A stretch of DNA of 64,000 nt, taken from assembly GCA_028693285.1 (NCBI GenBank), contig JAQUVQ010000002.1, positions 41,626 to 105,625 of the forward strand, read 5' to 3'. The DNA is from Smithellaceae bacterium. Lineage in GTDB: Bacteria; Desulfobacterota; Syntrophia; Syntrophales; Smithellaceae. The first letter of the stretch is position 1; the number at the start of each line of letters is the position of its first letter. The translations under genes were made by a program, and so were the position numbers. The notes below the pieces were generated by a model. The model saw only the letters and a list, made by a program, of their open reading frames with translations, ran no database searches and had not been told where the DNA came from. Below, one piece after another: positions 18,701 through 49,521 of the stretch.

Positions 18701-18751
18701 AAAGGCAATCAAGAGCAAAATGAAGAAGATTCTGGAAAAAAGTTTCGTCAT
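15740..18751 (-). CDS. Cassette A gene 2: large exported protein (1003 aa) with protein-kinase-like motifs
   Basis: Signal peptide; GYVWTDNKLSNFAFE (catalytic-loop-like, ~16507-16556) then VVPLDTGGFYKV (DFG-like); homologous to the 27809-30553 product. Confidence 0.75.
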   Translation of the reverse strand: MTKLFSRIFFILLLIAFAQFVPSGAAANAELEEIRRLETLLLTPCDKPLAYMTELVRLGQTYQDQERQRLALYRGILDTHRLVLANFLTDNADKAGATAGPFRARYDQLYQEADREGMLREASYEDVPEYMNMADMAVRVWQYDADQDRRYYGSEASVGRWAKKQEDLGNKLFFVEAQRAGAEHLRKEMIRLKEDWKTARAEYFKTMEADPYKDHFSELDRRAAFMTDTLRREYESNRQALTIAAQSGSYEHCLGEIVESSTYTAFSENSGFSPPPTIYQAGDAGTVEALPGMGFRMPKPAVFDRIKAAQTDIPEEFPLDLPLKFDPLPYIKTEIECQKIKIKAEKDAIIAMGTYLTGLKGTGGLLVGEGFNVFHGVCEGFGSVGNILLGIGYAQLHPIEAYEKLNKTKNDMVYLWESSDAKQALIEKGVGSIADYFRGIGSGFNLLLIDDPPDGVYDRQTMEDWRQRAEETQLARKMLTNTEMLVGSILADVATGVILSRGSQAAKLAAEAADTAGDLSQAAARAKKLEEAAARAGKTLDDVPSVKTVEHLADDIRKNQDALMKLERDLSGKTRDIPYDPKMLRTPEDLLADASTVDTKGGMNAYVRLNEDLGMKVSNQPIIKGDTPAAVLSRKSRDLDDAGRVYLQDITKDSSIGRLPQVKDRYYIVQDASGAAKTVRNLAEIPDGASYKVVDVMEHIPSSMHADKLAGAQKLTADHVRAYEAFMRDMNAKGYVWTDNKLSNFAFETVDEAKGVYRVVPLDTGGFYKVGDLPSGVNMSKADFARKMQRAYDKGVEANVEGAPGKMLAVSQNMVDEGIPESMLDQVDDIMGVRKINPQAEQMVNTWDSGYRMSSPKNPQGQAYSHAGDYARESGKADDVLTREVSEAAEASQQARKLEYAKTRASLDAQKVRLEQINSQLDAGAQKLVQADIVEKSAAATAARTSVNTAREGVQTVAGIQAAQERILCLEIKEKILSGIQADWITEGWKNCQKLGLTFEGGR

Positions 18752-18761
18752 GATCAGTGCC

Positions 18762-19586
18762 TTATCGCGGCAGCGTAAAAGCCGCCCCCTGTCCGTCGTG
18801 GACTTGTGCCGCCGTCTTGATCAGTTCGTCGCGGGCCGTCAAAGCGGCCGACAGCGCCTGGCTGATCGAACTTTGCATGGATTGAAGATCCGCGACGGAA
18901 TAGCAGTCAATCGCGCTCCAGACCTGGTAGGCGCCGTCATCCTGCCAGGTTTCCAGACGCAGTCTGTCGGCCAGATGGCTTTCGGAAAGCATCCGTTTGG
19001 AAATATCAACACCGAAGAAACGATCGGGCTTTTCTTTTAAAGATTGGTTTAGGTCTTTTTGCAGGCGGTTGAGGTCCGCGTTGAATTCGCCGATATTTTT
19101 GGGAAACCGGTTGAGGGAAACGGCCATGGTGGCGGTAACTTCGGGAAGAGAAAGCCCCTGGAAGACGGCCGGCGCCTTGAGAGTTTTTTTGCGGTTTTCG
19201 TAGGAGTTTTTTAATCCGGCGGAAGCGTTTTTAAATCCCTGTTCGGCCAGACGCAGGCGATACACCAGATCGACGGTTTTTTGTCCCGCTTCGGCGCCCG
19301 ACGTTCCGCAGGCCCAGCCCTCGATGGTCATGGGTGGAACATAGGAAGAGTTGAGCTCGACAAACGCCGATTCCGCCGGCGCTTTAATCAGCAAGTCTTC
19401 ACCGGCCCCGACCGGCGCAGCGGCGGCCAGCAGAATGAGAATAGGCAGGAAAGGAAATAAGACCGGAAAAGTTCTTTTTCCGGCCCGAAACGGAATGGAG
19501 AAAATTTCAGCAAGCGAAGTACACATCAACCGTAAGAATGTGCTTAAATGCCTTTTATGACTTTGGCAACCTGATTGTCCATGCAA
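18762..19586 (-). CDS. Cassette A gene 1: exported coiled-coil protein with EGWACG motif (start uncertain)
   Basis: Hydrophobic segment FPVLFPFLPILILLAAAAPVGA then IKAPAES...IEGWACG; homologous to the 30618-31370 product. The true start may be internal (e.g. MCTSLAEIF). Confidence 0.65.
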   Translation of the reverse strand: MHGQSGCQSHKRHLSTFLRLMCTSLAEIFSIPFRAGKRTFPVLFPFLPILILLAAAAPVGAGEDLLIKAPAESAFVELNSSYVPPMTIEGWACGTSGAEAGQKTVDLVYRLRLAEQGFKNASAGLKNSYENRKKTLKAPAVFQGLSLPEVTATMAVSLNRFPKNIGEFNADLNRLQKDLNQSLKEKPDRFFGVDISKRMLSESHLADRLRLETWQDDGAYQVWSAIDCYSVADLQSMQSSISQALSAALTARDELIKTAAQVHDGQGAAFTLPR

Positions 19587-19765: not shown

Positions 19766-21064
19766 ATGGAACGCTTATGGAAAGGATGTTTGCTCTGCCT
19801 GGCCGTTCTTCTTTTTGCCGGCTGCACGGCGGTGAATCATTATCTCGGGTTCTGGCAGGCTAAGCAGGAGGCCAGGGAGGCCTTCAGCCGGGAGCAGAGC
19901 GCGGAGCTGCTGATGCAGCTTGCGCCGGAGGATGCCTATCTTCTTCTGGGCAAGCTCGCTTTTGACCGGGAACCCGCGGGTCCCATCCTTCTGCTGGCGC
20001 TTACGGACAAATTTAAAAAAAGAGAAATCGCCGCCCGCTCTCCCATGCAGACGCCCCTGGATTACTATCAGATCCATTTGCCCGAAGGTGTTTATGAAAT
20101 TTATTTCTTCGCCGACCTCGATGAAAACGGTTATTTCGAAGCGCATGAATGCGTGGGCCGCCTGCCTCGGCCGGTCACGATTGCAAAACAAAAAGTCAAA
20201 GACGGATTGTCCGTCATCGGACCGGATTTAAAACTCAATCTGGCCGCTCCTTCGAAAACCGATCTGGTTTTCGAAGAAAAGGTCCGGCGGCATTCCTATG
20301 TTTACGAATCGCTGGAGGATGAATTCTTCGATCCCCGCTACGGGGAGATCGGCCTTTATGATTTCAAGGTTTTCATGGCGCATACTCAGCAGTATATTTT
20401 TTCCTTTGAGACGATGAATCCTCGAAAGACGCAGGTGCTCTTTGTGCACGGCGTCGCGGGCACGCCGAGGGATTTTCAATACATGGTCCGCGGAATCGAC
20501 CGGAAGCGCTACCAGCCCTGGTTTTATTTTTATCCTTCCGGCCTGCCCTTGAAAAAACTGGGCGCCAACCTGGCCAACATCATCAAGTATGCCGAAGCGA
20601 ACAATCCCGGCCGCCTGCGCCGCCTCATCATCGTCGCGCACAGCATGGGAGGGCTGGTGGCTCTATCCACCATTCAGCATTTGTCCGCTGACGGCGTTCC
20701 GCCCTATCTCAAGGGCTGCATCTCCTTCAACTCTCCCTACGGCGGCGTCGAGGCGGCGGCGTCCGGCATTAAGTATGCGCCCGCCGTCGTGCCTTCCTGG
20801 CATGACGTGGCGGCGGGAAGCCCCTTTCTGAACGAGCTTTACACGGAAGGGAAGCATAAGGCCATTCCCTTCTACCTGTTTTTCGGTTACAAGACCGGCG
20901 ACAGCAGCGACGGAACCATCACGCTGCAAAGCCAACTGAACAGGAATATCCATTTATCCGCGCATAAAAGTTACGGTTTCAATGCCTCGCATGTGGGCAT
21001 ACTCCGTGATGAACAGGCGCGTCAGGTGTTTTACAGGACCTTGTCCGATCTCGACCGTGACTGA
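19766..21064 (+). CDS. Alpha/beta-hydrolase lipoprotein
   Basis: Lipobox LLFAGC near the N-terminus; VLFVHGVAGTPRDFQYM and VAHSMGGLVAL nucleophile-elbow motif. Confidence 0.85.
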   Translation: MERLWKGCLLCLAVLLFAGCTAVNHYLGFWQAKQEAREAFSREQSAELLMQLAPEDAYLLLGKLAFDREPAGPILLLALTDKFKKREIAARSPMQTPLDYYQIHLPEGVYEIYFFADLDENGYFEAHECVGRLPRPVTIAKQKVKDGLSVIGPDLKLNLAAPSKTDLVFEEKVRRHSYVYESLEDEFFDPRYGEIGLYDFKVFMAHTQQYIFSFETMNPRKTQVLFVHGVAGTPRDFQYMVRGIDRKRYQPWFYFYPSGLPLKKLGANLANIIKYAEANNPGRLRRLIIVAHSMGGLVALSTIQHLSADGVPPYLKGCISFNSPYGGVEAAASGIKYAPAVVPSWHDVAAGSPFLNELYTEGKHKAIPFYLFFGYKTGDSSDGTITLQSQLNRNIHLSAHKSYGFNASHVGILRDEQARQVFYRTLSDLDRD

Positions 21065-21194: not shown

Positions 21195-23423
21195 CTATTT
21201 TATTTCCTCCAGACTCCACAGGGTTTCGCTCAAAGGCGGGAAGCTTTCCGCAAACTGAATCTCCATGCGTACCTGGCCGTCAAGCCGCCGGGGCATGCCG
21301 AAACGGATCACGCCGCCGGGGCGCGACCACTCGGTCAGACGAATAAAACGGCCGTTTCGAATATCGGACAAAAGCCGGCCTCCCGTCTCTCCCTTTTCAT
21401 AAAAATTGGACGGGTTGCCGTAGCGATCCAGAAGAATGGACAGAATCCTCTGAAACGTCTGCATAATATCATCAGGCTGCTCCAGGTAGGCAAAATCGAT
21501 GATGACGGCGGACCGGTTCAATGCATTGTTTTTTTGAATCAAGACCAGCCGCTGACGCAGGTCTATTTCATCAAACACTCTGGTTTCGTAAAGGAGAAAG
21601 TTTTCCTGGCGCACCGGGTTGACAATGCCTTTGGCGATTAATTGCTTTTCGGCCTCGTCCATTTTTGCGCCCGGCGCGAAGGAAGCCAAATCAAATGCTT
21701 TGGCCGGCATTTCAGGGATTTCTCTTCGTTCTTCCGCCGCTTTGCCGCGCCCCGGAGTTTTTGCCGGTTTATCAAAAGAATAAGTCCAGAATGCCGCCAG
21801 TTTATAATAATCGATGGTCTGGCCTGGATCGGGATTTTGGTAGCCGGAGGAAAGTTCCAGACCAAAGGAATGGTTGTTCAGGGTAAAGCGGTAGTTCAGG
21901 GCCTGGGTGGTAGTGATCATATCGATGCCGTCGGTGACATAGCGGCGCTGATCCGTCCGGCTCAGGGTGTAATCCAGGCTGTGCGGCCCCCGCGTCAGCC
22001 GGAAGGCAATAGTGGGAGAAACGTCAAAGGAATCTCCGGTGTCGCTGTTGATTTTTCTGAGCACGACACCCGGCGTGACCGCGCCCCGGCAACCCAAAAA
22101 ATCAAGCAAATGATCCGCGCTTAGCGAAAATTGATGGGAAGCGCTGTCCCCCGCATCGGGAAGACGGTTGAAAAAATTGAGATACTGGTAGCCCAGCCGT
22201 CCCGTCCAGCCGGCAATTTTGGGAATATTGACATTCAGATTTACATTGTGTGTTAGATTGTCGATTGAATCCGTCCGGTTTTTCGCATCCTGGCGGAAGA
22301 CATCCAGTGATCCCAAAGGCCCGGTAAGATTCGCGCCGAAAAGAGACGCATCCGTCGGATTGGCGCGGCCGAGATCATTTCTTCTGCCCTGGGCCCGCAG
22401 CCGCAGTTGATACCCCCTCGCAAAAAGCCAGCCCGCATGTCCTTCCAGGTTGCGCAAGGCCGGTGTAATGGACGCGCCTGTCGGCTGGTAGTCTTCGCCG
22501 TATTCTTCATAGCGCAGCCGGTAAGTGAATGGATGTTTGCCGGAGCCGGACGCCTGAAAAAAAATCCCCCTGTCGCTTTTGTTCTGGCCGCTTTGCGCAT
22601 CCGCCGCGCCGTCATGATCTCCTCGAAACAGTCCCAGCTCGCCTTCCAGAAGCAGTTTCTGGTTTTTCGCCTGAAGCGTATGCTGGCCGGTTAAGCTGTA
22701 AACCATTTGAGTGCGCTGGAGAATGTTGCGGGCTTCGTCGCTTTGACGCGTGTTGTATGCAATATTCAGACTGTAGCGGCCAAACGTCGGGTTTTCGATT
22801 AAATAGGAGCCGCCGTTGAAATAGCTGTCGCGGAAATTCAGATGGCGCCAGGAGGAAAGACGGGCGCCGGAGGATAAAAGCACGGAATGCCTGGAGGCCG
22901 AGCCGGCAAAAGGCTGCAGATCAACCTGAACGCCCTTGAGAGACGTCTGCAGGGTTCTGTAGGTGTAGTAGGAATACACATCGCCCAGTTCCACACGGAA
23001 AGGCAGAGCAATGTCTCCTTTTTCCCTCATGAGATGGATGCGTTCCGGAACCAGTCCGTAATCGGCGCTGCGGTAGGGAGACCCGTTGATCACGCCAAAT
23101 ATATCCCCCTTCCAGAGATCATAGGGGTTTTTGCGCCTGCTGAAATTGAGGCCGATTTCATCATAGGAGGTCAGTCCTTCATAACTGTAAGGGGCCTGGG
23201 CTTCATCCCCTTGATAATCGTAGTATTCCAGCCGAAAAGTGTTGCTGCCGGATATTTGCCAGTCCGGAAGAACGGCATTTGCCGCTCTTTGCAGCGCGCC
23301 TTCCGTTTGGGCGGTCACGTCGGCCGGCGCAAGGCAGATAAACATCATCAGAAAAACACAAGCCAGCCGCCGGACAGAGCCGGTTATTCCGCCGCCGCGA
23401 CGCGGGATGCTTTGAAGTCTCAC
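21195..23423 (-). CDS. Cassette B gene 6: outer-membrane beta-barrel-like protein with extra C-terminal domain
   Basis: 742 aa; paralog of 9172-11379. Shared GSPYRS.DYG / SLKG.Q..LQP and C-terminal RQRLVL...SAVIIDF...RFIRLTEWSRPGGVIRFGMPRRLDG. Confidence 0.7.
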   Translation of the reverse strand: MRLQSIPRRGGGITGSVRRLACVFLMMFICLAPADVTAQTEGALQRAANAVLPDWQISGSNTFRLEYYDYQGDEAQAPYSYEGLTSYDEIGLNFSRRKNPYDLWKGDIFGVINGSPYRSADYGLVPERIHLMREKGDIALPFRVELGDVYSYYTYRTLQTSLKGVQVDLQPFAGSASRHSVLLSSGARLSSWRHLNFRDSYFNGGSYLIENPTFGRYSLNIAYNTRQSDEARNILQRTQMVYSLTGQHTLQAKNQKLLLEGELGLFRGDHDGAADAQSGQNKSDRGIFFQASGSGKHPFTYRLRYEEYGEDYQPTGASITPALRNLEGHAGWLFARGYQLRLRAQGRRNDLGRANPTDASLFGANLTGPLGSLDVFRQDAKNRTDSIDNLTHNVNLNVNIPKIAGWTGRLGYQYLNFFNRLPDAGDSASHQFSLSADHLLDFLGCRGAVTPGVVLRKINSDTGDSFDVSPTIAFRLTRGPHSLDYTLSRTDQRRYVTDGIDMITTTQALNYRFTLNNHSFGLELSSGYQNPDPGQTIDYYKLAAFWTYSFDKPAKTPGRGKAAEERREIPEMPAKAFDLASFAPGAKMDEAEKQLIAKGIVNPVRQENFLLYETRVFDEIDLRQRLVLIQKNNALNRSAVIIDFAYLEQPDDIMQTFQRILSILLDRYGNPSNFYEKGETGGRLLSDIRNGRFIRLTEWSRPGGVIRFGMPRRLDGQVRMEIQFAESFPPLSETLWSLEEIK

Positions 23424-23510: not shown

Positions 23511-24023
23511 TTATTGCGCCGCCTCCTCCGTAATTCTGAGAATATATTCATTGACCCCGCCGAATTTAACAAACCCTTTTGTCGGATCATTATATTCAAT
23601 CTGCGTGTCCGCCGTCACGGAAACCTCGCTGATCATTTCATGGCCACCTCCATCTTTGTTTCTCTGAAACTGCTGAAGCGTCTGAACGCCCTGCACGGAC
23701 ATGATTCGAATGGCTGCGTCTTTCGGAACCTTGGTGCTGATTGCGTCGGCAAGCCCGCTCTTGTCGTAAAAATCGTCGCCCAGGTATTGTTGAATTCCGC
23801 CGCCGTTCCAGGCGCCCATCAGCTTCTTCACGGAATCGGCGGCCGCGCTTTTGGCGATCGGACGAAACTCCTCAACCGGGGCGGCGCCCGGAGGAATTAT
23901 TCCGGGTGTCGGAATGGCGTTGATGGTCCGGAATTCCTGCGCGGCGGCCGGTGTAAAGCTTATGCTTGCGGCGAGGACGGCAGCCAGCAGAATCCGCGGA
24001 AGGCTGATCGGTTTTGTTTTCAT
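23511..24023 (-). CDS. Cassette B gene 5: small exported protein
   Basis: Start refined to MKTKPISLPRILLAAVLAA; paralog of 11372-11866. Confidence 0.75.
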   Translation of the reverse strand: MKTKPISLPRILLAAVLAASISFTPAAAQEFRTINAIPTPGIIPPGAAPVEEFRPIAKSAAADSVKKLMGAWNGGGIQQYLGDDFYDKSGLADAISTKVPKDAAIRIMSVQGVQTLQQFQRNKDGGGHEMISEVSVTADTQIEYNDPTKGFVKFGGVNEYILRITEEAAQ

Positions 24024-24036
24024 GCTTTGTTTCCTC

Positions 24037-24909
24037 TTACGGCGGTGAAACATTGGAAATGAACAGCTCGAATTTATAATTGCTGATTTTTTTCACCGTG
24101 GCGAAAACAACCAGCTTCCGCCCCGCGTAGGGTGCTTTTTTGGACTGCAAATAAAAGCGGCCTTCCACATCGAATTTCAGGGGGATCCTCACAAATCCGG
24201 AACCGGTGGGCGGAATGAATTCCGCATAGGCAAAATCAGGAAAGGCGGCCACGTCCGTGTAGGTGCAGTCCGGAGACAGAAGCGGCACCATGATGTCAAA
24301 GGCCAGGAAGTTCCAGCCGCTGTCTCCACCGACGACTTTGCAGGCGCTTGCGGCGAAATCCACAAAAAGTCCCGCCGAAAAAGTCGGCATTTGCTTGCCC
24401 AGGCAGGTCTGGAAACCGGAGGTTGATTTGAACGGCGCCGACTGTCCGATACAACCGGCAAAGGGTGTCGGAGGCGGAGGCGGAGGCGGAGGGGGCGGGG
24501 AGGGGCCTGGACCAGGCGCTGGACTGTCGCCGCCACCCTGCATCATTTTTTGCAGCTCTTCAACGGACGCAAAATACAGCCGGCCGTTAATCGTGGCATT
24601 GTTGACCGGTTCGATCTGATTGAGCGGATTGTTGCCGCGCACCGGAATAACCCGTACAACCTCGATTTTGGTAATTTTCGTTTTTCCCCGGCCAAGTAAA
24701 ACCGCGCCGGATTCCGCCAGCGCATCCTGCGCTTTGCCTGCCTGCGAACTTTTATCGGAAGACGGCAATGCGCCGACAAAGCGCTCCGTCAGCTCGGCCG
24801 GAAAAAGCGGCCGGCTGTCTTTTCCCAAAATGATCTCTTCCGCCAGAACATTTTGAAAAGAGACAAATAAAAACAAACAATTTAAAATCATCAACATCCG
24901 TTGAAACAT
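24037..24909 (-). CDS. Cassette B gene 4: exported protein with poly-Pro linker (PAPGPGPSPPPPPPPPPPTP)
   Basis: Signal peptide; paralog of 11863-12822; the proline tract is in the same relative position. Confidence 0.72.
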   Translation of the reverse strand: MFQRMLMILNCLFLFVSFQNVLAEEIILGKDSRPLFPAELTERFVGALPSSDKSSQAGKAQDALAESGAVLLGRGKTKITKIEVVRVIPVRGNNPLNQIEPVNNATINGRLYFASVEELQKMMQGGGDSPAPGPGPSPPPPPPPPPPTPFAGCIGQSAPFKSTSGFQTCLGKQMPTFSAGLFVDFAASACKVVGGDSGWNFLAFDIMVPLLSPDCTYTDVAAFPDFAYAEFIPPTGSGFVRIPLKFDVEGRFYLQSKKAPYAGRKLVVFATVKKISNYKFELFISNVSPP

Positions 24910-24912
24910 TTT

Positions 24913-27789
24913 TTACCTCCGAAATTCATCCGCGCTGCCCACGTACTTTTCCGGGTCAACGAACAGCGGGTAGTTCGGCATATCCGTATCCAGAGACAGC
25001 TCCACATGAATCATCGCGGCGGGATCAAAATATTCCTGGATTCCCTTGACCACGTTAAAACAGCCGCCCAGCATTTCCGAGGACATCCGGACGGGCGTCA
25101 TGTCTTGTTCCAGATAAAGTTTGCTCTCCGAGGAGATGCGCCACCGGCACCATGTTCTCTCCCAGAATTCCCGGGAAAGTCCGGTAACGGCCGCGCCAAC
25201 TTTCATGGCGTCGTTAAACACCACCAGATCCAGACCCCTTTTCTTCAGCTGTTCGGCAAAACGGTTTTGCGCCCGTTTATTCTGTGCTTCCTGCGTCTGC
25301 TGCTGAAGCTTTTGCCGGCAGTAGGTTTCCGGTTTTCCGCCCGTTTCAAAGCCCCACATATCCGCCCAGCGGGCAACCGTGCTCACGCAGTCGGTCATGC
25401 TCTTGAAATCATTGGAATTGTCGCCCGTATCTTTGCCGACGGCCGCAGCAGGCGGACGAGTGGGCAATAATACGATATTGGCCTGGGCCAGCGTGCTTTT
25501 CGCGTCCAGCTGGGCCAGCGCCAAATCATCCAGAACAATCCGGACATGATCAACTCTGCTGCCGGACAATAATGTGGCCACGAAAGCGTCGCCGTCTTTG
25601 GTAAATTGCGTGGCCGTTTCCGACGCCCCGGCAATTCCGGCTGTCTTCCATAAGGCTTTGTACTTGCTCATGTCTCCTGCGCCGCTCGCGGAGAGCTTGT
25701 AGAGCGTTTTCCCGTTTTGCAATGTGGAAGATAAGATCAGGCGGTTGACATTGACCCAGATGGTGTTGGAGATCAGCTTGGCCTGAGCCGTTTCCAGCAT
25801 TTTGTAATTTTCTTTTGGATCGCTGATGTTGGCATAGCCGCTGATTTTCGCGCTGATTTCGGTTTCCATAGGATATACGGACTGGCTTGTCAAACGCCCG
25901 CCCGTCGTTACGGCGGCGGCGCCGGGATTGGTGGATTTAAATTCAATCTGCACGGGAACTTTCACATCGCCAAGCGCCAGCGGATCTTTGACGTTCCGAA
26001 GATGCAAAAACGGCATCAGGCGAACATCGGCGGCCAGATGATTGGGGTAAAACAGGTCAATTTCATCCATTTCCCGGGGTGTCCGGTTACCGTAACGAAC
26101 CAGAAGCTTCAGCTTTTCGGCCACGGGCATCGCCAGCTTTGCCGATCCCCGGAAGGAGAAAACATCCTGCCGCGGCGGAGGAGACAAAATCTGCAGCATC
26201 CTCAACAGATCCTTCTTTTGCGGATTGCTTCCGATGATCGGCAGATAACTTGCACTGGCGGAAAAATCGACTTTTTTGCCCACTCCCTCCGGCCATTTGT
26301 CCAACACATCCACAATCAGTGTATTGACGGCCGACCAGACATTGCCTTCTTTTTTAAAGTAGGTGCGGGATTCTTTCCATTTTGCCGGTCCGGCGGAACT
26401 CCAGTTAACTGTATAGTCTCCACCCATGTCGGCTTCTCCCTGAACCATCAGTTTTACGGAATATTCTCCGCCCTGTGCCAGTTCTCCATCACGCATTTCG
26501 GGCGCAGGCTCAACGGCTGCGGAATTGACCGTGAAACGGTGTTGAACCATCCGCTTTTCTGTTTCCAGCTTGCCCAGATTCCAGGCAATGACACTTGCGC
26601 CAGTGCCGCCCGCATACTGGAGAAATCCTTTTCCGTCAGGCAGAATCGGGCCTGGTGACTTGACGTCCGTATGCACGGTGACGGGAAAGTCGGATATTTC
26701 AAATGGTTTTTCCTTCTCCTGACCTGTGTCGATAACTAAAATGGGACTGATTCGGCCAATCGCATAAGGATCGGCCCAAATATCGAGCATGAACCGTTCA
26801 GGCGCAGAGGTGGAAAGGCTTTTAGTGCTGGCAATGACGCCGTTGTAACTTTGGTTGACGGGAATAAAATAGTCCAGGAAAGGCGCTTTGGCCCCCGGAA
26901 GATTAAAGTCGAGGCCCGGAATGCCGAAATCCTTGAATTTGATGGACTGAAATTGGATGGTTCTTGTAAAATCCCGGCCTGCATTGACATAGTCCGTCCA
27001 TTCATTTCGGCCCTGGCAAAGCTCGGGGTTGATTCCCTGCAATCCGCCCTTTCCGGAAATCGTCACTGCCGGCAGGCCGGGCGAAGAAAATGCAACCGTT
27101 CCGGAATCCAGAACCGTTGCGCCGCCCGCCGCGCTCACCAGCACGCCCAGCTTGCCCCGCACATCGGCAGGCACGCTAAAGACATTGGCTTCGCCGCCGG
27201 ATACAGCACGCCGCATGACGCCGCAAAAATTACTGACCAGAGAAAATTTATCCTGCAAGATGGAAAAACCGATTTTGGGCGAAAAACCAATGTCGGTGGG
27301 AGGAATCCTGTTTTTAAGATTGAGGAGCGCGGCTGTTTCTGAGTCTGCCGCCACATAGCCCGGATAGGCTTTCTCAAAATAGGAGATCCCTCCCAGAACC
27401 GGTGTGTATCTAGGGTTGCGCAAATCGCTGAGAGCGTCCGCGCTCAGTTGCGGCAGCTTTTCTTCCGGGTAGGCAACGTTGAAACGCAGCGTTTTGGGTT
27501 TTGGCAGCTTGCCTGCAATTTCCTGCGTATTGCCACCCCTGGAGATGGACTCCAAAAGCAGGGAGCCGCAGTTCTTTTCATAAGTCTGCTCTAAATTTCT
27601 TAATGATTCTATGGTATTATGAAGGTTTTCCGCGATAAACGAGGCGGGCTGGGAAATCGTCAACTGCTCAGCCTTTTTTCCCTTTTCCGGATCTTTGGCC
27701 AAAACCTGGTTTCCGAAGCCTTGCAGCAGCAAAAAGGTCCAAAGCACAAGCGCGGGCAGGATCACGAAATAAAATTTACCTCTGAACAT
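24913..27789 (-). CDS. Cassette B gene 3: large exported protein
   Basis: Start refined to MFRGKFYFVILPALVLWTF with an AGGAG RBS; paralog of 12822-15743. Confidence 0.8.
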   Translation of the reverse strand: MFRGKFYFVILPALVLWTFLLLQGFGNQVLAKDPEKGKKAEQLTISQPASFIAENLHNTIESLRNLEQTYEKNCGSLLLESISRGGNTQEIAGKLPKPKTLRFNVAYPEEKLPQLSADALSDLRNPRYTPVLGGISYFEKAYPGYVAADSETAALLNLKNRIPPTDIGFSPKIGFSILQDKFSLVSNFCGVMRRAVSGGEANVFSVPADVRGKLGVLVSAAGGATVLDSGTVAFSSPGLPAVTISGKGGLQGINPELCQGRNEWTDYVNAGRDFTRTIQFQSIKFKDFGIPGLDFNLPGAKAPFLDYFIPVNQSYNGVIASTKSLSTSAPERFMLDIWADPYAIGRISPILVIDTGQEKEKPFEISDFPVTVHTDVKSPGPILPDGKGFLQYAGGTGASVIAWNLGKLETEKRMVQHRFTVNSAAVEPAPEMRDGELAQGGEYSVKLMVQGEADMGGDYTVNWSSAGPAKWKESRTYFKKEGNVWSAVNTLIVDVLDKWPEGVGKKVDFSASASYLPIIGSNPQKKDLLRMLQILSPPPRQDVFSFRGSAKLAMPVAEKLKLLVRYGNRTPREMDEIDLFYPNHLAADVRLMPFLHLRNVKDPLALGDVKVPVQIEFKSTNPGAAAVTTGGRLTSQSVYPMETEISAKISGYANISDPKENYKMLETAQAKLISNTIWVNVNRLILSSTLQNGKTLYKLSASGAGDMSKYKALWKTAGIAGASETATQFTKDGDAFVATLLSGSRVDHVRIVLDDLALAQLDAKSTLAQANIVLLPTRPPAAAVGKDTGDNSNDFKSMTDCVSTVARWADMWGFETGGKPETYCRQKLQQQTQEAQNKRAQNRFAEQLKKRGLDLVVFNDAMKVGAAVTGLSREFWERTWCRWRISSESKLYLEQDMTPVRMSSEMLGGCFNVVKGIQEYFDPAAMIHVELSLDTDMPNYPLFVDPEKYVGSADEFRR

Positions 27790-27808
27790 GCTTTGTCTCC
27801 TCATCGAC

Positions 27809-30553
27809 CTAATGATTCAGATTGGCGCAGGGATTGCCCATTTTCTTAAGCTTTTCCGGATCTTCGCCGGCAATCAGCAGCTTTCTGTATTTCACGCATT
27901 CCGCACAGTCGGACAGTCTGGAGGCTGCATTGGTCATCAAAGTGTATCCTGCCGCCTGTTCCAGTGACTCAGCTATTTCCGCGGCTTCCGGAACCGGGGA
28001 AGCCTTCTTCCTTGCTTTTATTGCGTCCTCGGCCGGAGCGGCTAAAACGGCATCAGCCGTTTTCCCTTGCAGGGACACTGCCAGTTCCTGATCAGTCATT
28101 TTAGCAATGTTTCCCGTGTTGATGCGAATGTCTCCCGCCGCCATGCCGATGCTGTCCGAGCTTTCAATGCCCATGGCTTTTATATCGACCAGCGGCTTTT
28201 CATAAGCGCCGAGAATCTTTTCCCGTATTTCCGCCTGCTCCAAAAAAGTTTTTCCTTCCATGGTTTTGCCCAGTTCGTTGACCCGAATCTGCATGGCCCG
28301 GGCGTTTTTGGCCAGCTCTTCCGCAGTGTTTCCTGTAACTTTCACGATGTTGCCCGTATCAAACACCACCACGCGCCAGCGATCTTCACCCGGCAGTTTT
28401 TCAAAGGCAAAATTGCCGCTGTGATTGTCCACCCAGGCAAATCCCTTGCTGTTGATGTCGCGCAAACCCTGTTCATAGGCCATTTTTTGCCCTTCGGTTA
28501 AAATTCCTCCCTGTTTTTTTATTGTTGTCGCCGCGTCTTCCGCCACTCTTTCCACTACTTCAATTTTTTTTGCTTTTTCGATGCCCAATTCGTCGCCCGG
28601 TGTGGTGTAAACAGCTTCTCGTTTAGCTACGCGAAGCGAGTCGCTTTTAACGTCTTTTTCCAGAGCCTGTCGGCCAAAATCATCAAGTTTGGCGGCAGCA
28701 ACGGCTTTTTTGTCCAGCACGGTTTGTCTGATAATCCGCGAATCATTGGTCGCGTCGATAAACGCCGTGCTGGTGGAACCTTTTCCCAGTTGCTCACCCA
28801 GAGTTAGAGAAACATTTTGTCCCTCCGCTGTTGAGACCTGAACCGTCGCTTTGGCCTTTGTCGGCTGGCCGGCAAAAGGTTTAACCACCGGTTCATTGAC
28901 AACTTTCTTTTGCAATATTTCCAGCTTACCGTTGACGTCTTTTTGTCCTTCAATAATTTTTTCCAGACTTTTGGTTTTTGCTTCCACTTGCGCGGTCAGG
29001 GCGGGATTTTGCGCTTTCAGGGCTTTGAGCTGATTGGCCAGAGACTCGAATTTGCCGCCCGCAACACCGGCTTTGGCCAGCGACACCGCTTGCCCCGTTT
29101 TGGCGATAACCGCGTCCGCCTTCCAGAGCATGGCGATTTCGCCGGTAACTTTGGCCATTTCCTTCAGGCCAACATTTACCTGCCGGGCCGATTCAATTTG
29201 CTCCAGCATCTTTTCCAGTTTTTTTTGGGGCGGGTCACCCGGATTGGCGGTAAAACGATCAGAATCAACGGCGCGGAGCGCCAACTGTGAACCGAGGTTG
29301 CCCAGTTTATCGGCGGATGATTCCAGGGCTGTGCCAATGGCTTCTCCAATGCCGCCTTCCGCCTTGATTTTGTACAGGTAGCCGCGGTCGAGAACTTTAT
29401 CGCCGAATTCGATCACCGCCTTGGCGCCGTTGACAGTGCTGTCGATGGGATGAGAAGCGATATCGATCATCGCGTCGCCCAGGGGCGCGGTTGCCTCCAC
29501 AATGTGAAAGGCGGCGTCAAATGCGAAAGACAAAGTTTCATCGACAAAGTCAATGCCCAGTTCAATCGTGTCTCTTTCCTGTTTTTCCAGCTCCAGCTTG
29601 AGGATTTCTTCCACGAACGCCCGCGCTTTGTCTCCGTCGCGCTTCAGATGAAGCTGGAACGGACAATCGGGAATATTGGTCCTGGCCAGCACGGGCAGAT
29701 TGGTCGGTTGCAGAAACTGAAGACCCATTCCCGGCAGGCCTTCCACGGTGTCCTTCTTTCCCTTGATAAACAGCTTTTCCGTTCCATCAATATATGTGTA
29801 GGAGGAGGAGGCGGGCGCCATTTTCCCCAGGCAGTGTTCGTAGTCGCCGCTGTAGGCGGCTTTGCTGAGCTGATCTGCATTGTTGAAATAGCCGGCTTTG
29901 GCTTTCGCCATTTTCTCACTCAGAGATGCCAGATCTTTATTGGCCAAATCCAGATCGCTTTTGATAAACTCGTCGTATTTCTTTTTGTGCTCATTCCATT
30001 TGCTCTTGATGTCGTTCAGTTTTTTGCTGAGTTCGGCTTTGCCGGCCTCATTTTTTTCCGGATTGCCGAAATAGAAATAGGATTTCGCATCGGGGGCAAA
30101 GGCAAATTCCGAGTTGCTGATCTGGATGCCGGCCCTTCTTTGCTTGTCGGACCAGGGCGGCGTGCCGTCGATCAAAAGTCCAGTCTCCCGCGCTTCGTTT
30201 TTTAATGAAACAAAAAGGTTATAAAACTGACCCGGTTCTGCTTTGGCATTGGCGTCGGGCGAGACCACGAAATCTTTCAGGATGCCCCACTGTTTTTGAT
30301 TGTAAAGTTCATAGATGGAAAGCCGTTGGTTTTCACTGCTGTAATAGGACTGCCAGTGATCGATCAGGCCATCCATCAAAGATTGCACGTCCTGGCAGGA
30401 CCTTTTGATTTTCTTGTCAATATCGTTGATCTGGATTTTGAGGTTTGCGCAGTCCGTTTTTTCTCCTTCCTGATTTGCGGCCGGAGAAATCCCCGCAAAA
30501 AAGGAAAAGAAAACCAAAAACAGGATCATCAATCCGGCAAATTTGTTTTTCAT
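27809..30553 (-). CDS. Cassette B gene 2: large exported protein with protein-kinase-like domain
   Basis: Signal peptide; LGEQLGKGSTSTAFID (Gly-rich-loop-like), GFAWVDNHSGNFAFE (catalytic-loop-like, ~28402-28446), VVVFDTGNIVKV (DFG-like). Start refined to MKNKFAGLMILF (MRSMKNK at 30562 is also possible). Confidence 0.78.
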   Translation of the reverse strand: MKNKFAGLMILFLVFFSFFAGISPAANQEGEKTDCANLKIQINDIDKKIKRSCQDVQSLMDGLIDHWQSYYSSENQRLSIYELYNQKQWGILKDFVVSPDANAKAEPGQFYNLFVSLKNEARETGLLIDGTPPWSDKQRRAGIQISNSEFAFAPDAKSYFYFGNPEKNEAGKAELSKKLNDIKSKWNEHKKKYDEFIKSDLDLANKDLASLSEKMAKAKAGYFNNADQLSKAAYSGDYEHCLGKMAPASSSYTYIDGTEKLFIKGKKDTVEGLPGMGLQFLQPTNLPVLARTNIPDCPFQLHLKRDGDKARAFVEEILKLELEKQERDTIELGIDFVDETLSFAFDAAFHIVEATAPLGDAMIDIASHPIDSTVNGAKAVIEFGDKVLDRGYLYKIKAEGGIGEAIGTALESSADKLGNLGSQLALRAVDSDRFTANPGDPPQKKLEKMLEQIESARQVNVGLKEMAKVTGEIAMLWKADAVIAKTGQAVSLAKAGVAGGKFESLANQLKALKAQNPALTAQVEAKTKSLEKIIEGQKDVNGKLEILQKKVVNEPVVKPFAGQPTKAKATVQVSTAEGQNVSLTLGEQLGKGSTSTAFIDATNDSRIIRQTVLDKKAVAAAKLDDFGRQALEKDVKSDSLRVAKREAVYTTPGDELGIEKAKKIEVVERVAEDAATTIKKQGGILTEGQKMAYEQGLRDINSKGFAWVDNHSGNFAFEKLPGEDRWRVVVFDTGNIVKVTGNTAEELAKNARAMQIRVNELGKTMEGKTFLEQAEIREKILGAYEKPLVDIKAMGIESSDSIGMAAGDIRINTGNIAKMTDQELAVSLQGKTADAVLAAPAEDAIKARKKASPVPEAAEIAESLEQAAGYTLMTNAASRLSDCAECVKYRKLLIAGEDPEKLKKMGNPCANLNH

Positions 30554-30617
30554 GCTTCGCACTTTCGCTTTTTCGGGAAAAAACTAACGTTTGATATTAT
30601 TCACAATGAGATGCTGC

Positions 30618-31370
30618 TTAACGCTTCCGGTATTTTTCCACGTCGCGTCTGAGCTTTTGATACTCATCAAAAAGCGCGATCGCTGTCTGATAAGCCTGCG
30701 TCTGGTTTGAGACAAACACATCCAGATCGGATTTTGTATAACAGTTGACGATGACATAGGTTTCATCGTTGTCCATCACCTGTTCCAGGGTTGTTTCATA
30801 ACCCACGAACTTCGCGGAGGTATCGGCCAGGCGGTTGACGCCATTGGCTGCTGCTTTCTGAAAGTCTTCAATCTCCTTATGAAATTTTTGAATGTAGTAC
30901 CGGTCGATTTCTTCCATGCTGCGGGCGGAAATCGTTCTGTGTGCCTGATAATCGGTCAGGGTCAGATCAACGGCGGCCGTCCGGGACAAAATTGATTCGC
31001 TGAGGCGGGACGCGTTTTCCGAAAGCTGATTGGAATTCAGCCCCTGCTGCCTGCTTTCCTCCATAAGCAAACCTAGGGATTGAATGCCTTCCCGCAGAAG
31101 TTGGTTTTTGTCGACCAGTTCTTCGGAAATCAGGTTGGCGGTGCGGATGTCGTGAATGATTTGCGGAGCAAGGTTGTCGCCGCAGGCCCATCCTTCTACA
31201 GCAAACTGCCGAAAGGAACGATGGGGATAAGAACCGCTGGCCGATTCTTTCGGCGCGGTGATTTTTATGATGTCTGGCGAAAGGTTTTCACAAAAGGCGG
31301 CATGCGGAAAGGCAAAAGAAGCTAAAATCAGGACTCCTGCCATGACTTCCGCAACTTTATTTATTTTCAT
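30618..31370 (-). CDS. Cassette B gene 1: exported coiled-coil protein with EGWACG motif
   Basis: Start refined to MKINKVAEVMAGVLILASFAFPHAAFC preceded by GGCGGAG; ITAPKESASG...VEGWACG matches the cassette A protein. Confidence 0.78.
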   Translation of the reverse strand: MKINKVAEVMAGVLILASFAFPHAAFCENLSPDIIKITAPKESASGSYPHRSFRQFAVEGWACGDNLAPQIIHDIRTANLISEELVDKNQLLREGIQSLGLLMEESRQQGLNSNQLSENASRLSESILSRTAAVDLTLTDYQAHRTISARSMEEIDRYYIQKFHKEIEDFQKAAANGVNRLADTSAKFVGYETTLEQVMDNDETYVIVNCYTKSDLDVFVSNQTQAYQTAIALFDEYQKLRRDVEKYRKR

Positions 31371-31406
31371 GTTTACTCCGCCCAGGAAACATGATTTTTG
31401 ATTTGC

Positions 31407-31435
31407 ATTATAGTCTTGCCATCTGCGCAATTCAA
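31407..31435 (-). promoter_or_regulatory. Sigma70-like promoter for cassette B (TTGAAT-17-TATAAT)
   Basis: Minus strand: TTGAAT (31435-31430), 17 nt, TATAAT (31412-31407), ~37 nt upstream of the refined start. Confidence 0.72.
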
Positions 31436-34557: not shown

Positions 34558-34610
34558 AAAACCCTCGAAAGTTGCTAGCAGGCAATAACCGTTCTTTAAG
34601 GAGACAGATT

Positions 34611-37600
34611 ATGAAAAAGATGACCTGCCTGCTGTTGATTTGCGCCTTTCTCGCCTGTTCCCAATGTGTGTTTGCCCAGGATTCCGCGGAGAAAAGCAGT
34701 CCGAAAACAACCGGGGAATATCTGAAGAAAACGGCAAAGGATCAGGCGGCATCAACGGCGGAAGATATGGCTAAGAAAAAGGTTCAGGAAAAGGTTGATC
34801 AGAAAGCGCCGCAATTGATCAATTTGGCATACGAAAAATATCCGGTGATCGCCAAATTCTCCGGCAGGAAAGATTTCTCGGAGTTAATGAAGGATTACAA
34901 CAAATACAGTGACGCATATGAAAAGCTCACCACGGTGAATTCGCTGCTCGTCAAGGTGGCGGAAGGCAACGTGGCGGGCGCGACCTATGACGCGACCAAA
35001 GAAATATTCACCAAAGTATTCCCTTATTCCAAATACATATTTTCATATCTCGAAGCGTGGGACAAAATTCTTACGTCCGTATCGGACGCCGTCATGGAAA
35101 ATAATCTTGATTACATCCGCAAGGAATTCATGAGAGACGTCCTGCCGAAGTGCAAAGAATCCTGTCCGTTGTCGGAGGAGCAAAGTTTCGCCGGAAGAAT
35201 AGGCCGGCGCATGGCGGAAGATGATCAGGGCGCTTACGGTCTGGTTGCCTGGTATTGCAAGGAGGGAGGCGCGGCCGGCAGTTCCAAGTGCGGAAGCATC
35301 TGTGTGTCCGGGCCGTTTGACTGGTCCAAAAGGAGAAGCTTTGAAAACTCGGGATGTGAAGATTATGCCGTCATGTCTTTTGTCCGCTCCGACCAGAAGA
35401 TCCGTCAGGCAGTGTCCGCTCACTATTCCATTCTCCGAGCCATTGAGGATGTGGGCGATATGCAGAAAGCGATGAAAAATGCATCCGATTATGTAAAGAA
35501 AAATCTGCTTGTCTTTGAACAGGAGCAGGGAAAAATATTTGCCGCCCAGGAGGCATTAAAAGAGCAGCAAAAGAAGGCCGCGCAGGAAAAGATCGCCATG
35601 GCCGAGCCGCCAACGCAGTGCGATGAAAAATGCGCGGAGAGTTATCGCAAAGCCTGGTATAAGACTAGAGAGATCTCGCAGGAGATTCAAGACAAGCGCA
35701 GCGCCATCAATGCAAGGGTCCAGGAAATCCAGAAAGAAAACGCCGCCAGAAGAAACGAACTGAAAATAAATGTTTCATCCGGCAATTTGGAAGAGCTCAA
35801 GACCGATCCCGGCAATGTATCCATTGACGAGGACAACGTTGATTACAATGGGCGGCAGGCCCAAAGGTTGGAAAAGCTTGTGGCCAACGCCGAAAAATGG
35901 CTTCAGTCTCAGCAGCTGGAGATTCGGGTTTACGACGGGCGCATATCCAGCCTTCAGGGGCTTTCCGGTCTGTATGCGCAGAAACAGAATCTCGAGACCC
36001 AGTATGGAACAGGCGGCACTTACCGATCCAGTGAGAAATTTACCGCCAATTATTCGCTGATTCTGGAAAATGAGATCAAGGGCGTGGAGCTCAAACGGCA
36101 GGAACTGGTGGATGAAATTACTGTCGTTCAGAACAATCTTTCCGGCTACAGGTCCCTCCAAAGCAAGTATAAAAGCGCCTTTGAACAGGGCAGCAAGAAA
36201 GCCAGAGAACTTCTGGAAAAAGAGGTAGAGCCCGCCTATCAGGAATATGCCCAGGCCGACCAGGAATTGGAAAATATCGAAAACGAACGTCGTGAATACG
36301 AGCAGGAGAAACTGATCCAGATCAACGTGGTCATGTCCAAAATCACCGCGGCAAAGAACCAGGCGGAATTGGAGACCCTGCTGCCCCAGGTCAACAAAGA
36401 TATGGCCGAATACAATCAGCTGCTGCAGAAGCAGGCGCAGCTGATGCAGAAGGCCGCAGACAAAAGTCAAAAAGTTGAAGCGCTTTCCAGATCTTCCAGG
36501 ATTCAAAGGGCAAAAGGTACGCTGGGATATCAAAGCAGCTCCCTGTCTTCCCGAATGGTCCGGCCGGACTTGAGCGGTTCAAAGTTCAGCCTTGCCGCTT
36601 ATCTTCCTTACATTGCCGAGGCCAACCGCTATGTTGTGACGGAAAGCGCGCGGCGCTATGGCGAAACCCTGAAAAAAATTCCCGATGAAGCGGCATTCAT
36701 CATTATGCCGGATGGCGATATGAAAAAGCTTTCTATGGAAGTGTCTTCGGCAACCGGAGAAAATGCGGCGAGTTCCATCAAAGCCCAGGCCTCAACCATT
36801 GCCAGAATCAAAGACTTCAGCGGAGCCTACAGCGCCTATCAGTCGGATCTTGGCAGTTCTCTGAATTCTGGAAACTGGAAAATAGATGCTGTGTTATCCG
36901 AGGAAGCAAGGGCGGCTTTGAACAGGCTGGCCGCTTTTTGGAGTGAGCATTTTAATCCGCTTATGCAAAAACGTTCGCAAAAAATTAATGAGAAAATTAC
37001 CTACAGCCAGCCGAAGATCGGCTCCGGAGCGCAAACCCTTCACGGCGCCGTCCGTTTGACCGCCGGTGACATTACTGACGGCAAAGTGCCTTTTCAAATC
37101 ACGGCCAGTGGCTGGGGCATCTCCCGCGCTCTTGTCAGAGTTGCCGCAGCCGGGAAGAACCTGCCGCTGACCATCAAGACCTCAACGGCAGCCGAAATAC
37201 CCGAGGCTGTCTATACGGCGATGGTTCCGGTTGCGGCCGGCAAGGCAACGCATGTTTCCTACACGGTCGGGGACTGGACGCATTCCGTTGATCTTCGCGC
37301 GCCGGCAGGCCATGCTGTTTCGCCGGAGGATGTCGGCAAAATTCGCGCTTTCTACGACAAATTCAAACAGGAATACGAGTCGCGCAACGATTCACGGATT
37401 GTGGCCATGATCAGCGACGACTGGCAGGCCGGCGACGGATCAACGCTTTCCGATCTGCAGATGAATCTGCGGCGCACCTTTCGGGTTTTTGACGAGATCC
37501 GCTACAACATTCAGAATCTCTCCGTAACACCCGGTCAGGACGGACGTTACAATGTATCCTATGATGTCACCATCACCAGCAGAATTTACAAAAGGAACCT

Positions 37601-37706
37601 CAAGCACGAAGAAAAATCGAGCGTTCAGGAAGAAGTGACCATCGGGAGTTCCGGCAAGCCCAAAATATCAAAAACGCTGGGGGGAAGGTTCTGGACTGTT
37701 CAATAA
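34611..37706 (+). CDS. Locus C giant exported protein 1, coiled-coil-rich, C-terminal NTF2-like domain
   Basis: Start refined to MKKMTCLLLICAFLACSQCVFA with GGAG RBS. C-terminus IRAFYDKFKQEYESRNDSRIVAMISDDWQAGDGSTLSDLQMNLRRTFRVFDEIRYNIQNL...TLGGRFWTVQ. Confidence 0.85.
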   Translation: MKKMTCLLLICAFLACSQCVFAQDSAEKSSPKTTGEYLKKTAKDQAASTAEDMAKKKVQEKVDQKAPQLINLAYEKYPVIAKFSGRKDFSELMKDYNKYSDAYEKLTTVNSLLVKVAEGNVAGATYDATKEIFTKVFPYSKYIFSYLEAWDKILTSVSDAVMENNLDYIRKEFMRDVLPKCKESCPLSEEQSFAGRIGRRMAEDDQGAYGLVAWYCKEGGAAGSSKCGSICVSGPFDWSKRRSFENSGCEDYAVMSFVRSDQKIRQAVSAHYSILRAIEDVGDMQKAMKNASDYVKKNLLVFEQEQGKIFAAQEALKEQQKKAAQEKIAMAEPPTQCDEKCAESYRKAWYKTREISQEIQDKRSAINARVQEIQKENAARRNELKINVSSGNLEELKTDPGNVSIDEDNVDYNGRQAQRLEKLVANAEKWLQSQQLEIRVYDGRISSLQGLSGLYAQKQNLETQYGTGGTYRSSEKFTANYSLILENEIKGVELKRQELVDEITVVQNNLSGYRSLQSKYKSAFEQGSKKARELLEKEVEPAYQEYAQADQELENIENERREYEQEKLIQINVVMSKITAAKNQAELETLLPQVNKDMAEYNQLLQKQAQLMQKAADKSQKVEALSRSSRIQRAKGTLGYQSSSLSSRMVRPDLSGSKFSLAAYLPYIAEANRYVVTESARRYGETLKKIPDEAAFIIMPDGDMKKLSMEVSSATGENAASSIKAQASTIARIKDFSGAYSAYQSDLGSSLNSGNWKIDAVLSEEARAALNRLAAFWSEHFNPLMQKRSQKINEKITYSQPKIGSGAQTLHGAVRLTAGDITDGKVPFQITASGWGISRALVRVAAAGKNLPLTIKTSTAAEIPEAVYTAMVPVAAGKATHVSYTVGDWTHSVDLRAPAGHAVSPEDVGKIRAFYDKFKQEYESRNDSRIVAMISDDWQAGDGSTLSDLQMNLRRTFRVFDEIRYNIQNLSVTPGQDGRYNVSYDVTITSRIYKRNLKHEEKSSVQEEVTIGSSGKPKISKTLGGRFWTVQ

Positions 37707-37881
37707 ATAATGCTGGAAATTGCACGGCAAGTTTCTTATTATACAGCAAAGAAGCGCTTCAAATCGTGAGGCGGGGAGATTCAAAGAACCTTGGTCGGAA
37801 TTCAATTTTTTCTGGAAACCAGACAAATCTATGAAAAATCCAACAGTCTGTTTTGGTCCATGCCGGTACATCAAGAAAAAC

Positions 37882-40800
37882 ATGATGAAGTTTTGCATAC
37901 TCATTTTCATCCTTTGCCTGCTGGCCATGCCCGGGCTTTGCAAAGCCGCTTCAGAAGAAGATGTTTATGACGCCATGTTCAACGCGGACGCCTCTCTTTT
38001 TACGACAGGCTACGGGGTTTTCCTTGACCAGGTAAAGGACGGCCAGAGATTTGGCGCTTCCATCGATGTGTTCAACAAGGCCGCCGGGTTTGCCGCCACT
38101 TACAGCAGCGTGACGACAAAAGCTTTTGCCACAGGCGATGTATCCGGCGCCGGAGAGGAAGCCATGCTGGCCGTCCTGTCCGAAATCGCCGGATGGCCGT
38201 CCGGCCAAGGCCTCCTGAAATACGTCGGTCTCTCTACGGGGGTCTTTCAGGTAGCATTGACGGCTTATTCCATCACCAAAGAGTCCTTTGCTCAGGTCAG
38301 GGCTACAAAGATTGCCCTCAACATAGAAACTCTATATGGCTGGATTGAAAGCGACCCGGTGCTGAAGCCCAAAAAGGGCAGGCAGCTCGGAGACAAGAGC
38401 GATCCGATTCCGGTCAATAATGAGTCGGTGGAATACATGTTCAGGAAGGTGGCGCAGGATGAGAGATGGCGTAATTTGTTCAAGTCCTATGTGTCGGAAG
38501 AACTCGGAGAAACCTTTCCAGAGCCCTCGACCTGGGATTGGCTCAGCATTGCCGCTGTAGACGGCTGGAAAAGCGCTCACACGGCCGAGCAGGCGGAAAT
38601 ATTCAAGGACAAGCGGCAGGTGGAAACATGGATCGCCGGTCTTCTGAGCCAGTTGAATAAATATGCCAGGGCTGTCGAGAGCGAAGTGATCCTGCGGCAG
38701 ACGTTGGCGAAGATCGAGAAGGCATCCAAGAAGATAACGCCCGAATTCCAGAAGTTTGTTGTCGGCGCCGAGGAGGCTGAAAAAAAACTTCCCGAGATCG
38801 ATGCCTATGCAAAGCAGGTTCCCACAATCATTGCCGCTGCAAAGAAAAATCAAAACTGGGACAGCCTCTACGATGTTCGGGACAAAATCGGGTATTATGC
38901 AAGAGTTTATGTAAGAGTGCTTCCCGACACGGGAAATATCGGCAAGAAGAAGCAGGCGACAAAGGCCGCCCTCAAGAACTCCTGGGTCGATGTGTCCAAG
39001 ACGCTCAAGGATATTCCCAAAACCATTAAAGAAGATTTTACTGCGCAAACCGTGACACCCCAATACAAGACCTCGATTTCACTGGCCGAGGTTTCTCCTG
39101 ATTTCATTGACATTGACGAGGTTGCCGCGAGACTGCACAAGGCGAAGTCTCTTCAGGACATGGAAGCCGAAGTGATTCTTGTCAAGGAGGATACAGAAAA
39201 AAAATACAGGACCTTTCAGGAGAACCACAACAAGGAAAATCCGGCGGGTGATCAGCATCCCGCCTATAATTCCCGGCGCGATGCGATGCTTCAGACATTG
39301 GAAAATCAGCGAAAAGCCCTGGAAGCGCAAATTGCTTCATGTGACCAATACTGCCGTTGGCTTTCCGGCGCCAATCCGTGTGGGGCGGATGGCGGCAAGA
39401 CCTGGGAGAGATGCTTCAACAGTGCGTCAGATGCCAAACGCGCCTGGGAAAAAACGGCATGGAAGCCATTGGAAGATCTGGAAACTGATAAAAAAAATTA
39501 CAATGCCAAACGAGAACTGTATGCCGGCAATATTTTTAATCAGCATGAAGCTTTGCTGAAAGCAATCGGCAGGCTGACCAATGAAGAGAGGGCAAGGTTT
39601 GCCGATATGGAAAAGCTGAAGAAGGATGCCCTGGACACTCTGGGAGCGGTGGATCAAAGCGTCCCGATCTTTTATCCGGAAACGGAAACAAAGCACTCCC
39701 AGGTAACGGCGGCGGACACGAAACAGTACCTCAACAGCTTCAGAGGCCAGAAAACCGACGGATATCTGGGCCTGCCGAAGATGAAGTTCCCGAAGTGGGG
39801 TGAGGATGGAATGGCTGTTTACGAGTATGTCCGGCGCATCGAGAGAAACGTATCCAACGAGAGACAGAATTTTGATCGATTGAGCGAAAAACACAGTCAG
39901 GCGATTCAATACATCGGGAAACTGAAAACATACCTCAAAGAAAAGGACCGGTATGAGCAGGAGATCAAGGAAGCAAAAGAAAGAATCTATGCCCTGCAAC
40001 TGCAGTCTGATCCCAAGGCGCAGGTAATCCCGGACATCGAAAAAAGAATTGCCGAAATGAAAAATGTGGAAAAGCTGGCGCTCGAAATTGAAGCTGAATT
40101 AAACAACAACTTGATCGCGGAAAATCAGAAGCAGCTTGCCGGCATAGAGGACGACCTGCAATATCTCGACTATCTGTTCAAGAGAATCGACTATTGGCGC
40201 GATGCGGTTCGGGGAAATACGCTGGCGGGATCGGTCAATGCCACTGTGGTGGAAGTAGCCGTCGCCACGGAAAACAGTGCCGGTTCAAACCATCATAAAT
40301 ACCTTGCGCCCTCATGGCAGGACTTGAGTCTTTTTGACAAAGCGAAAGCCGCCGCCGCCGCAAATGCGTTGCTGAAGGATGTCGAGCGCACCGGCATCGC
40401 CAAATGGGATCCCAACGGGGATACGGGGCTCAAGGTCATGCTGGAGAAGAAGGCCGCGGAGATAAGAAATTACTGCATCGACACGCCCGATTACGCCATC
40501 GTGAACGCCAATGTGGTGTATGCCGCAAGGATTGCCAGGATGGCCGCCGACGTGAAAGCAATCCCCGCAAGCACTTACGGAACCAATACTTATAAAGAAG
40601 GCCTCAAAAACCGCACGTTCGATGAGAAGCTCGGCGCAGCGCTTGGAAACGGCACAGCCTTTGCGATGAATATAGAGATGAAAATGAATTCGAACGAACA
40701 GACGGTTTCGGTGACGCTTGACAAAGCCAAAGAGCTGGCGGCGAGCCACGGAAACGCCACCATCAAGACGGCATCCTCCGACATGGTGAAGGCGATAGAA

Positions 40801-41598: not shown

Positions 41599-41735
41599 AG
41601 CCGGTCCCGCAAACCTAAAAAGCGCTTGTGGAGCATAAAAAGTTATCATATAAAAACAGGCATGACAGATTGAAGCCGCAGGATACATCAAATGAATTTG
41701 AGAAGAATATCTATTATGAAAGGAACGGTAAAAAA

Positions 41736-43379: not shown

Positions 43380-43403
43380 AAAGTTTTCCAAAGGAGGAAA
43401 ATC

Positions 43404-44873: not shown

Positions 44874-44925
44874 AGGGATTCTTGCCGGGTGACAACCGGT
44901 TGTTCCAGGAAGAAAGGTTGATAAA

Positions 44926-46203: not shown

Positions 46204-46215
46204 TCGGAGGTTCTC

Positions 46216-49491: not shown

Positions 49492-49521
49492 TTTTCCAGT
49501 AAAAAAGTTAATATAAACAGA

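Follow-up and report, generated by a model that had tools for sequence, protein, structure and literature searches.

A rare family of exported proteins with a divergent kinase-like domain, encoded in a six-gene envelope cassette of Smithellaceae and Syntrophorhabdaceae

The kinase-like gene and its cassette

The window, the whole stretch of 64,000 nucleotides analysed here from a Smithellaceae bacterium, holds on the reverse strand a gene whose product combines a signal peptide with kinase-like motifs. Read from ATG, the open reading frame at 27809-30553 encodes 914 amino acids, and read from GTG it spans 27809-30562 and encodes 917; the initial annotation, which gave 917 residues for 27809-30553, had the length of the GTG form and the coordinates of the ATG form. 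All residue numbers below count from the ATG. The gene belongs to a cassette of six gene families that is common to five loci in three genomes, and two of these loci, cassettes A and B, lie in the window:

27809-30553, reverse strand: exported kinase-like protein of cassette B, from its open reading frame, signal peptide and homologs; 914 residues from ATG, 917 from GTG at 30562
30618-31430, reverse strand: exported protein of about 250 residues with a GWACG motif, upstream of the kinase-like gene in cassette B, from homolog alignments
24913-27804, reverse strand: exported 963-residue protein of cassette B, without known family, from family search and homologs
24037-24909, reverse strand: exported 290-residue Pro-rich protein of cassette B, from homologs
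23511-24053, reverse strand: exported 180-residue protein of cassette B, from homologs
21195-23423, reverse strand: 742-residue likely outer-membrane beta-barrel of cassette B with a C-terminal soluble domain, from homologs and alternating hydrophobicity
9172-19586, reverse strand: cassette A, a paralogous six-gene set, from homologs of all six families
15740-18751, reverse strand: paralogous kinase-like protein of cassette A, 1003 residues, from homology to the cassette B protein

The N-terminus of the cassette B protein, MKNKFAGLMILFLVFFSFFAGISPAA, reads as a classical signal peptide and no further hydrophobic segments were found behind it. Signal peptides are present in the kinase-like proteins of 5/5 cassette homologs, which also share four invariant cysteines, none of them within the kinase segment; the export proposed in the initial annotation is supported. 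The protein would start with a helical region that carries the conserved motifs EHCLG and LPGMG, followed by a linker, then a putative kinase-superfamily domain of small size (residues ~571-745) and a variable C-terminal region carrying a conserved cysteine pair.

The five partner families comprise proteins of ~250 (with GW[AV]C), ~960, ~290 (Pro/Gly-rich), ~170 and ~740 amino acids, and the cassette genes had no match to known families in the searches made. By eye, all cassette B proteins start with a signal peptide. Genes 2-5 of cassette B overlap or are 3-4 bases apart, with the two outer genes no more than 90 bases away. In the ~740-residue protein, beta-barrel-like alternation of hydrophobicity exceeds all 300 shuffles in 5/5 homologs, which points to a likely outer-membrane barrel. 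The gene for the ~170-residue protein stands at the opposite cassette end in the loci on contig C53 of the same genome and in genome G452, compared with cassettes A and B and the Syntrophorhabdaceae MAG SKW74, while the six-gene set is unchanged. The ~170-residue proteins (11372-11866 and 23511-24053) may be NTF2-like. The kinase-like protein would be produced along with its five exported partners, one of which is the likely outer-membrane barrel. Sec export would place it in the envelope, where the six proteins probably work as one assembly.

The kinase-like protein is rare. The window's genome (2.68 Mb, 99% complete) has three copies, and a search of 156 genomes from its class found none in any of the others. 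Across the phylum, a full-length match occurs in 1/397 other genomes (G452), and three more have short weak matches only. Within the class of G452, 2/46 genomes carry the protein, the second being SKW74 (G538, contig JAOAHW010000086.1); in total, the cassette occurs in 3 of ~570 genomes searched. A contig search with the single protein returned no relatives, and an alignment-based scan found SKW74. Plasmids, phages and IMG/VR gave no relative. Five homologs of the cassette B protein are known, two in the same genome (15740-18751 and contig C53) and three in Syntrophorhabdaceae. One of these, the second SKW74 homolog (L025, 157-4566), is divergent, stands alone outside any cassette and has 1469 residues, among them an extra region at the N-terminus. 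A further Syntrophorhabdaceae genome (G329), in which the kinase-like protein is not detectable, has the C-terminal part of the cassette barrel at the edge of a contig (C65, 6-1079). Overall identity of the kinase-like proteins is 21% between cassettes B and A, which share one genome, and 46% between cassette A and SKW74; this greater divergence of the same-genome copies suggests an old duplication or a horizontal transfer of entire cassettes.

Several neighbouring loci were also observed. Between cassettes A and B, a putative lipoprotein gene (19766-21064, forward strand) has an alpha/beta-hydrolase-like GHSMGG motif (AHSMGG by eye). A third exported gene set occupies 34572-53082 on the forward strand, where four large proteins (34572-37706, 37720-41598, 46216-49491 and 49522-53082) share a nearly identical C-terminal domain of ~120 residues, the last 150 bases of two gene pairs being 91% and 95% identical. 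By eye this terminal domain looks NTF2/SnoaL-like, and 43404-44873 may hold a divergent copy. TamB-like (1325 aa) and TamA-like (601 aa) genes, recognised by eye, lie beyond the left end of the window, a few kb upstream (L010, 13410-19189).

Kinase-like motifs, conservation and profile comparisons

The motifs that the initial annotation had listed in kinase order, a Gly-rich loop, a D..N catalytic loop and a DFG-like motif, are all present in that order, and its estimate of the segment (~28300-28830) agrees with ours:

28319-28843, reverse strand: kinase-like segment, residues 571-745; best-conserved part, sole region scoring against the Ser/Thr kinase profile, ABC1 match at E=0.0024
28760-28786, reverse strand: Gly-rich-loop-like GKGSTSTAF, residues 590-598, from sequence and alignments
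28727-28729, reverse strand: R609 at the beta3-Lys position, by eye from alignments; Lys in the cassette A, SKW74 and L025 homologs
28403-28441, reverse strand: catalytic-loop-like FAWVDNHSGNFAF (D709, N714); both residues invariant in 6/6 homologs, loop aligned with the Ser/Thr-kinase motif HRDIKPxN
28352-28360, reverse strand: DFG-like DTG (D732, 28358-28360); Asp kept by the five cassette homologs and replaced by Glu in L025

Within WVDNHSGN, D709 is encoded at 28427-28429 and N714 at 28412-28414. In the cassette B protein, the first Gly precedes the catalytic D by 119 residues, N follows D at exactly +5 and DxG follows at 23; the same intervals in PKA are 116, +5 and 18. Across the open frames of this locus and its relatives, 92,761 amino acids in all, the pattern of Gly-loop, D-x4-N and DxG is fitted by the cassette B protein and its C53 paralog alone, and 1/500 shuffles of the cassette B protein fits it. 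The co-occurrence of these motifs exceeds chance.

Alignment of all known copies shows that D709 and N714, the catalytic Asp and its Asn at +5 in a beta6-loop-beta7 setting, are invariant in 6/6 homologs and that the Mg-site D732 is kept in 5/6, with Glu in the divergent L025 protein. The three residues recur in homologs with only 21-29% overall identity. The conservation of catalytic residues on which the earlier reading depended was thus checked and did not fail. Other positions are more variable. Three of the six proteins have Lys at the beta3 position and three have Arg, no alphaC Glu could be assigned in the alignment, and the GxG of the Gly-rich loop, found in cassette B, C53, G452 and L025, has shrunk to GGMN in the proteins of cassette A and SKW74. 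The kinase-like domain of L025 is partly more canonical (GSGSTATV, VAK, LDPNSGN), yet has the DFG Asp replaced by Glu. In 5/5 pairs compared, segment 571-745 is the most conserved part of the protein, at 29-61% identity versus 14-49% elsewhere. For example, it reaches 61% between cassette A and SKW74 versus 32-49% for other parts, and 42% between cassette B and C53 versus 24-28%.

For profile comparison, 17 usable Ser/Thr kinases and three ABC1 proteins were collected from related genomes. When a six-row domain profile was aligned to the Ser/Thr kinases with hhalign, the catalytic loop came to lie over HRDIKPxN and the DxG motif over DFG, with a score of 23.5 that was reached by 0/120 column shuffles and 0/120 block shuffles; the best unrelated cassette piece scored 19.0. 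Sliding 200-column slices along five cassette proteins gave scores of 10-18 against the kinases, rising only at the Gly-loop, to 26, and at the catalytic loop, to 30. In the six-row slices, these two blocks land exactly on the Gly-loop and the HRDxKPxN catalytic loop of the kinase profile, and for neither block did any of 150 column shuffles reach the score. Shuffles that moved intact 12-column blocks gave similar scores in 1/150 and 2/150, so the signal resides in two short motifs. In absolute terms, the probabilities from hhalign stay low and do not exceed 31%, versus 98% for ABC1 against Ser/Thr kinases.

Searches against known families gave one match, below its cut-off. Pfam on the isolated segment returned ABC1 (PF03109) as best match (E=0.0024), covering the catalytic loop and DFG of the cassette B homolog only and scoring 17.5 bits against a gathering cut-off of 22.9. 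Pkinase (PF00069) and CotH/Fam20C did not match the segment at E up to 10, nor did a hand-made consensus sequence match Pfam. Searches of PDB sequences with single proteins and profiles found nothing, and NCBIfam, PHROGs and PADLOC had no relevant match. As no score lies above a Pfam cut-off, membership in ABC1, Pkinase or CotH/Fam20 was set aside.

AlphaFold was run on the domain and on the full protein with an input of only three rows (window and L007 sequences), giving pLDDT values of 35 and 37. In these weak models the order of elements, helix-strand-loop-strand-strand-DxG, agrees with a kinase C-lobe, and nothing else does. Foldseek of the domain model against the PDB had a best E of 0.37, and TM values were ~0.1; about 20 of the top 50 matches were kinases and class A beta-lactamases recurred as well, and with every E above 0.3 these matches were not used as evidence. 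With both models at pLDDT 35-37, a bilobal kinase fold stays a prediction, though a likely one. Homology of the segment to the kinase superfamily is likely, the profile matches being in the correct register. The earlier kinase-like reading is borne out in part: export and motif order are sustained, and the profile support for homology lies at the level of the motifs.

Possible activity and alternative readings

We describe here a real, rare and new family with a divergent kinase-like domain, exported within a six-protein envelope cassette. The leading reading is that the kinase-like domain works, with activity as a candidate function only: a new and divergent exported kinase-superfamily domain may transfer phosphate or a nucleotidyl group to one of the cassette partners, a proposal that we offer tentatively, as plausible rather than probable. 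D709, N714 and D732 would most likely bind a nucleotide-Mg complex, from which phosphate or nucleotide would pass to the partner protein; this could happen in the periplasm or, ahead of export, in the cytoplasm. That the domain binds a nucleotide and is catalytic, what its substrate is and where it acts are all inferred, and to judge from sequence, phosphotransfer, AMPylation and other transfers look alike. Catalysis is no more than a candidate because the beta3 Lys is Arg in 3/6 homologs, the alphaC Glu is unassignable and the Gly-loop is eroded in two.

These same departures, along with the change of the DFG Asp to Glu in one homolog, make a pseudokinase the main rival, in which a kinase fold without catalysis would serve as a nucleotide-sensing or protein-binding module organising an envelope complex. 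The scarcity of ATP outside the cytoplasm (PMC7432876) points the same way. The initial annotation had raised this doubt about the periplasm; ATP is indeed scarce there but not zero, the same review citing ~24 µM, per 10^10 cells, in E. coli (PMC7432876), which makes the objection less strong than first put. Keeping D and N in 6/6 and the Mg-site D in 5/6 despite 21-46% overall identity would be unusual in a dead enzyme, and Lys-to-Arg occurs in 1/13 newly described Legionella kinase-like families that otherwise keep the key residues, N and D included (PMC9758233). WNG kinases offer a further precedent in having no Gly-loop (PMC6442604). We consider a pseudokinase somewhat unlikely, and the most serious of the alternatives.

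Another possibility is convergence, in which the segment is some other alpha+beta domain and its W-x-D-N-x3-N-F and V-x2-D motifs have a different role. The lack of a confident structure, the confinement of profile likeness to two short blocks and the empty list of Pfam or PDB families above cut-off would all be expected of such a domain. Two independent blocks nevertheless hit the right places of the kinase profile, correctly ordered and spaced, and none of 150 column shuffles did as well; the divergent L025 homolog is partly more canonical, which fits the expectation from shared ancestry; convergence is accordingly unlikely, more so than a pseudokinase. We give least weight to a secreted effector, or a toxin of polymorphic type, in which the kinase-like domain acts inside an ATP-rich recipient cell, with delivery aided by the cassette barrel. 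A large exported multi-domain protein with patchy distribution and several diverged copies per genome would suit such a role, and polymorphic toxins are known to include toxin domains of kinase type (PMC3482391). Here, however, the domain is internal rather than C-terminal and is the same in every copy, not swapped; no small immunity-like gene was recognised as tied to the kinase-like gene, whose cassette neighbours encode co-conserved exported proteins that matched no known family in the searches made, and PADLOC and known toxin families gave no match. This reading is improbable, and toxin-with-immunity and anti-phage readings were set aside.

Returning to a working transferase, its boldest form is a new Sec-exported Gram-negative kinase-superfamily enzyme that modifies the proteins of its own cassette outside the cytoplasm, by phosphorylation or nucleotidylation, and so forms the catalytic component of an envelope system of six proteins, not described so far, that has its own outer-membrane barrel; this full combination is speculative and rather unlikely. 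To our knowledge, animals have well-known kinase-fold enzymes that work outside the cytoplasm (Fam20), and Gram-negative bacteria, with their scarce periplasmic ATP, hardly any. A defined set of six proteins with a conserved, exported domain of kinase-like type makes a tangible case for testing, its five known partners being the candidate substrates; as an envelope system, the cassette is itself uncharacterised.

Comparison with known kinase-like systems

ABC1/UbiB (PF03109) is the best Pfam match and shares a D-x-H-x-G-N catalytic loop followed by DxG. The match, however, covers the catalytic half only and falls below the cut-off, and the cassette B protein has a signal peptide, whereas UbiB-type proteins are cytoplasmic or membrane-attached. 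With eukaryotic-like Ser/Thr kinases (PF00069) of related bacteria, the Gly-loop and the HRDxKPxN/DFG positions align in order. Unlike these, the cassette B segment is only ~175 residues long, is exported and has no Pfam match; an activation segment, APE and C-lobe helices were not recognisable in it.

Kinase-like Legionella effectors offer a parallel for partial loss, one family having Lys-to-Arg with N and the DFG D conserved (PMC9758233), but they are injected into a host by a pathogen rather than Sec-exported with a cassette and have no sequence relation by Pfam. Lantibiotic-synthetase-type domains of polymorphic toxins likewise place a kinase-like domain within a large exported protein (PMC3482391). 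Their motifs (DxH, YKP and DxHxEN) are different, and the present domain is internal and unswapped, with no immunity gene recognised. CotH and Fam20 set the precedent of atypical kinases that phosphorylate surface or secreted proteins, although neither matches in sequence, CotH acting in the spore mother cell and Fam20 in the eukaryotic secretory pathway. CotH phosphorylates the coat proteins CotB and CotG and is required for their assembly (PMC9765600), and by analogy a CotH-type role, in which surface proteins are phosphorylated for assembly, would fit the kinase-like protein.
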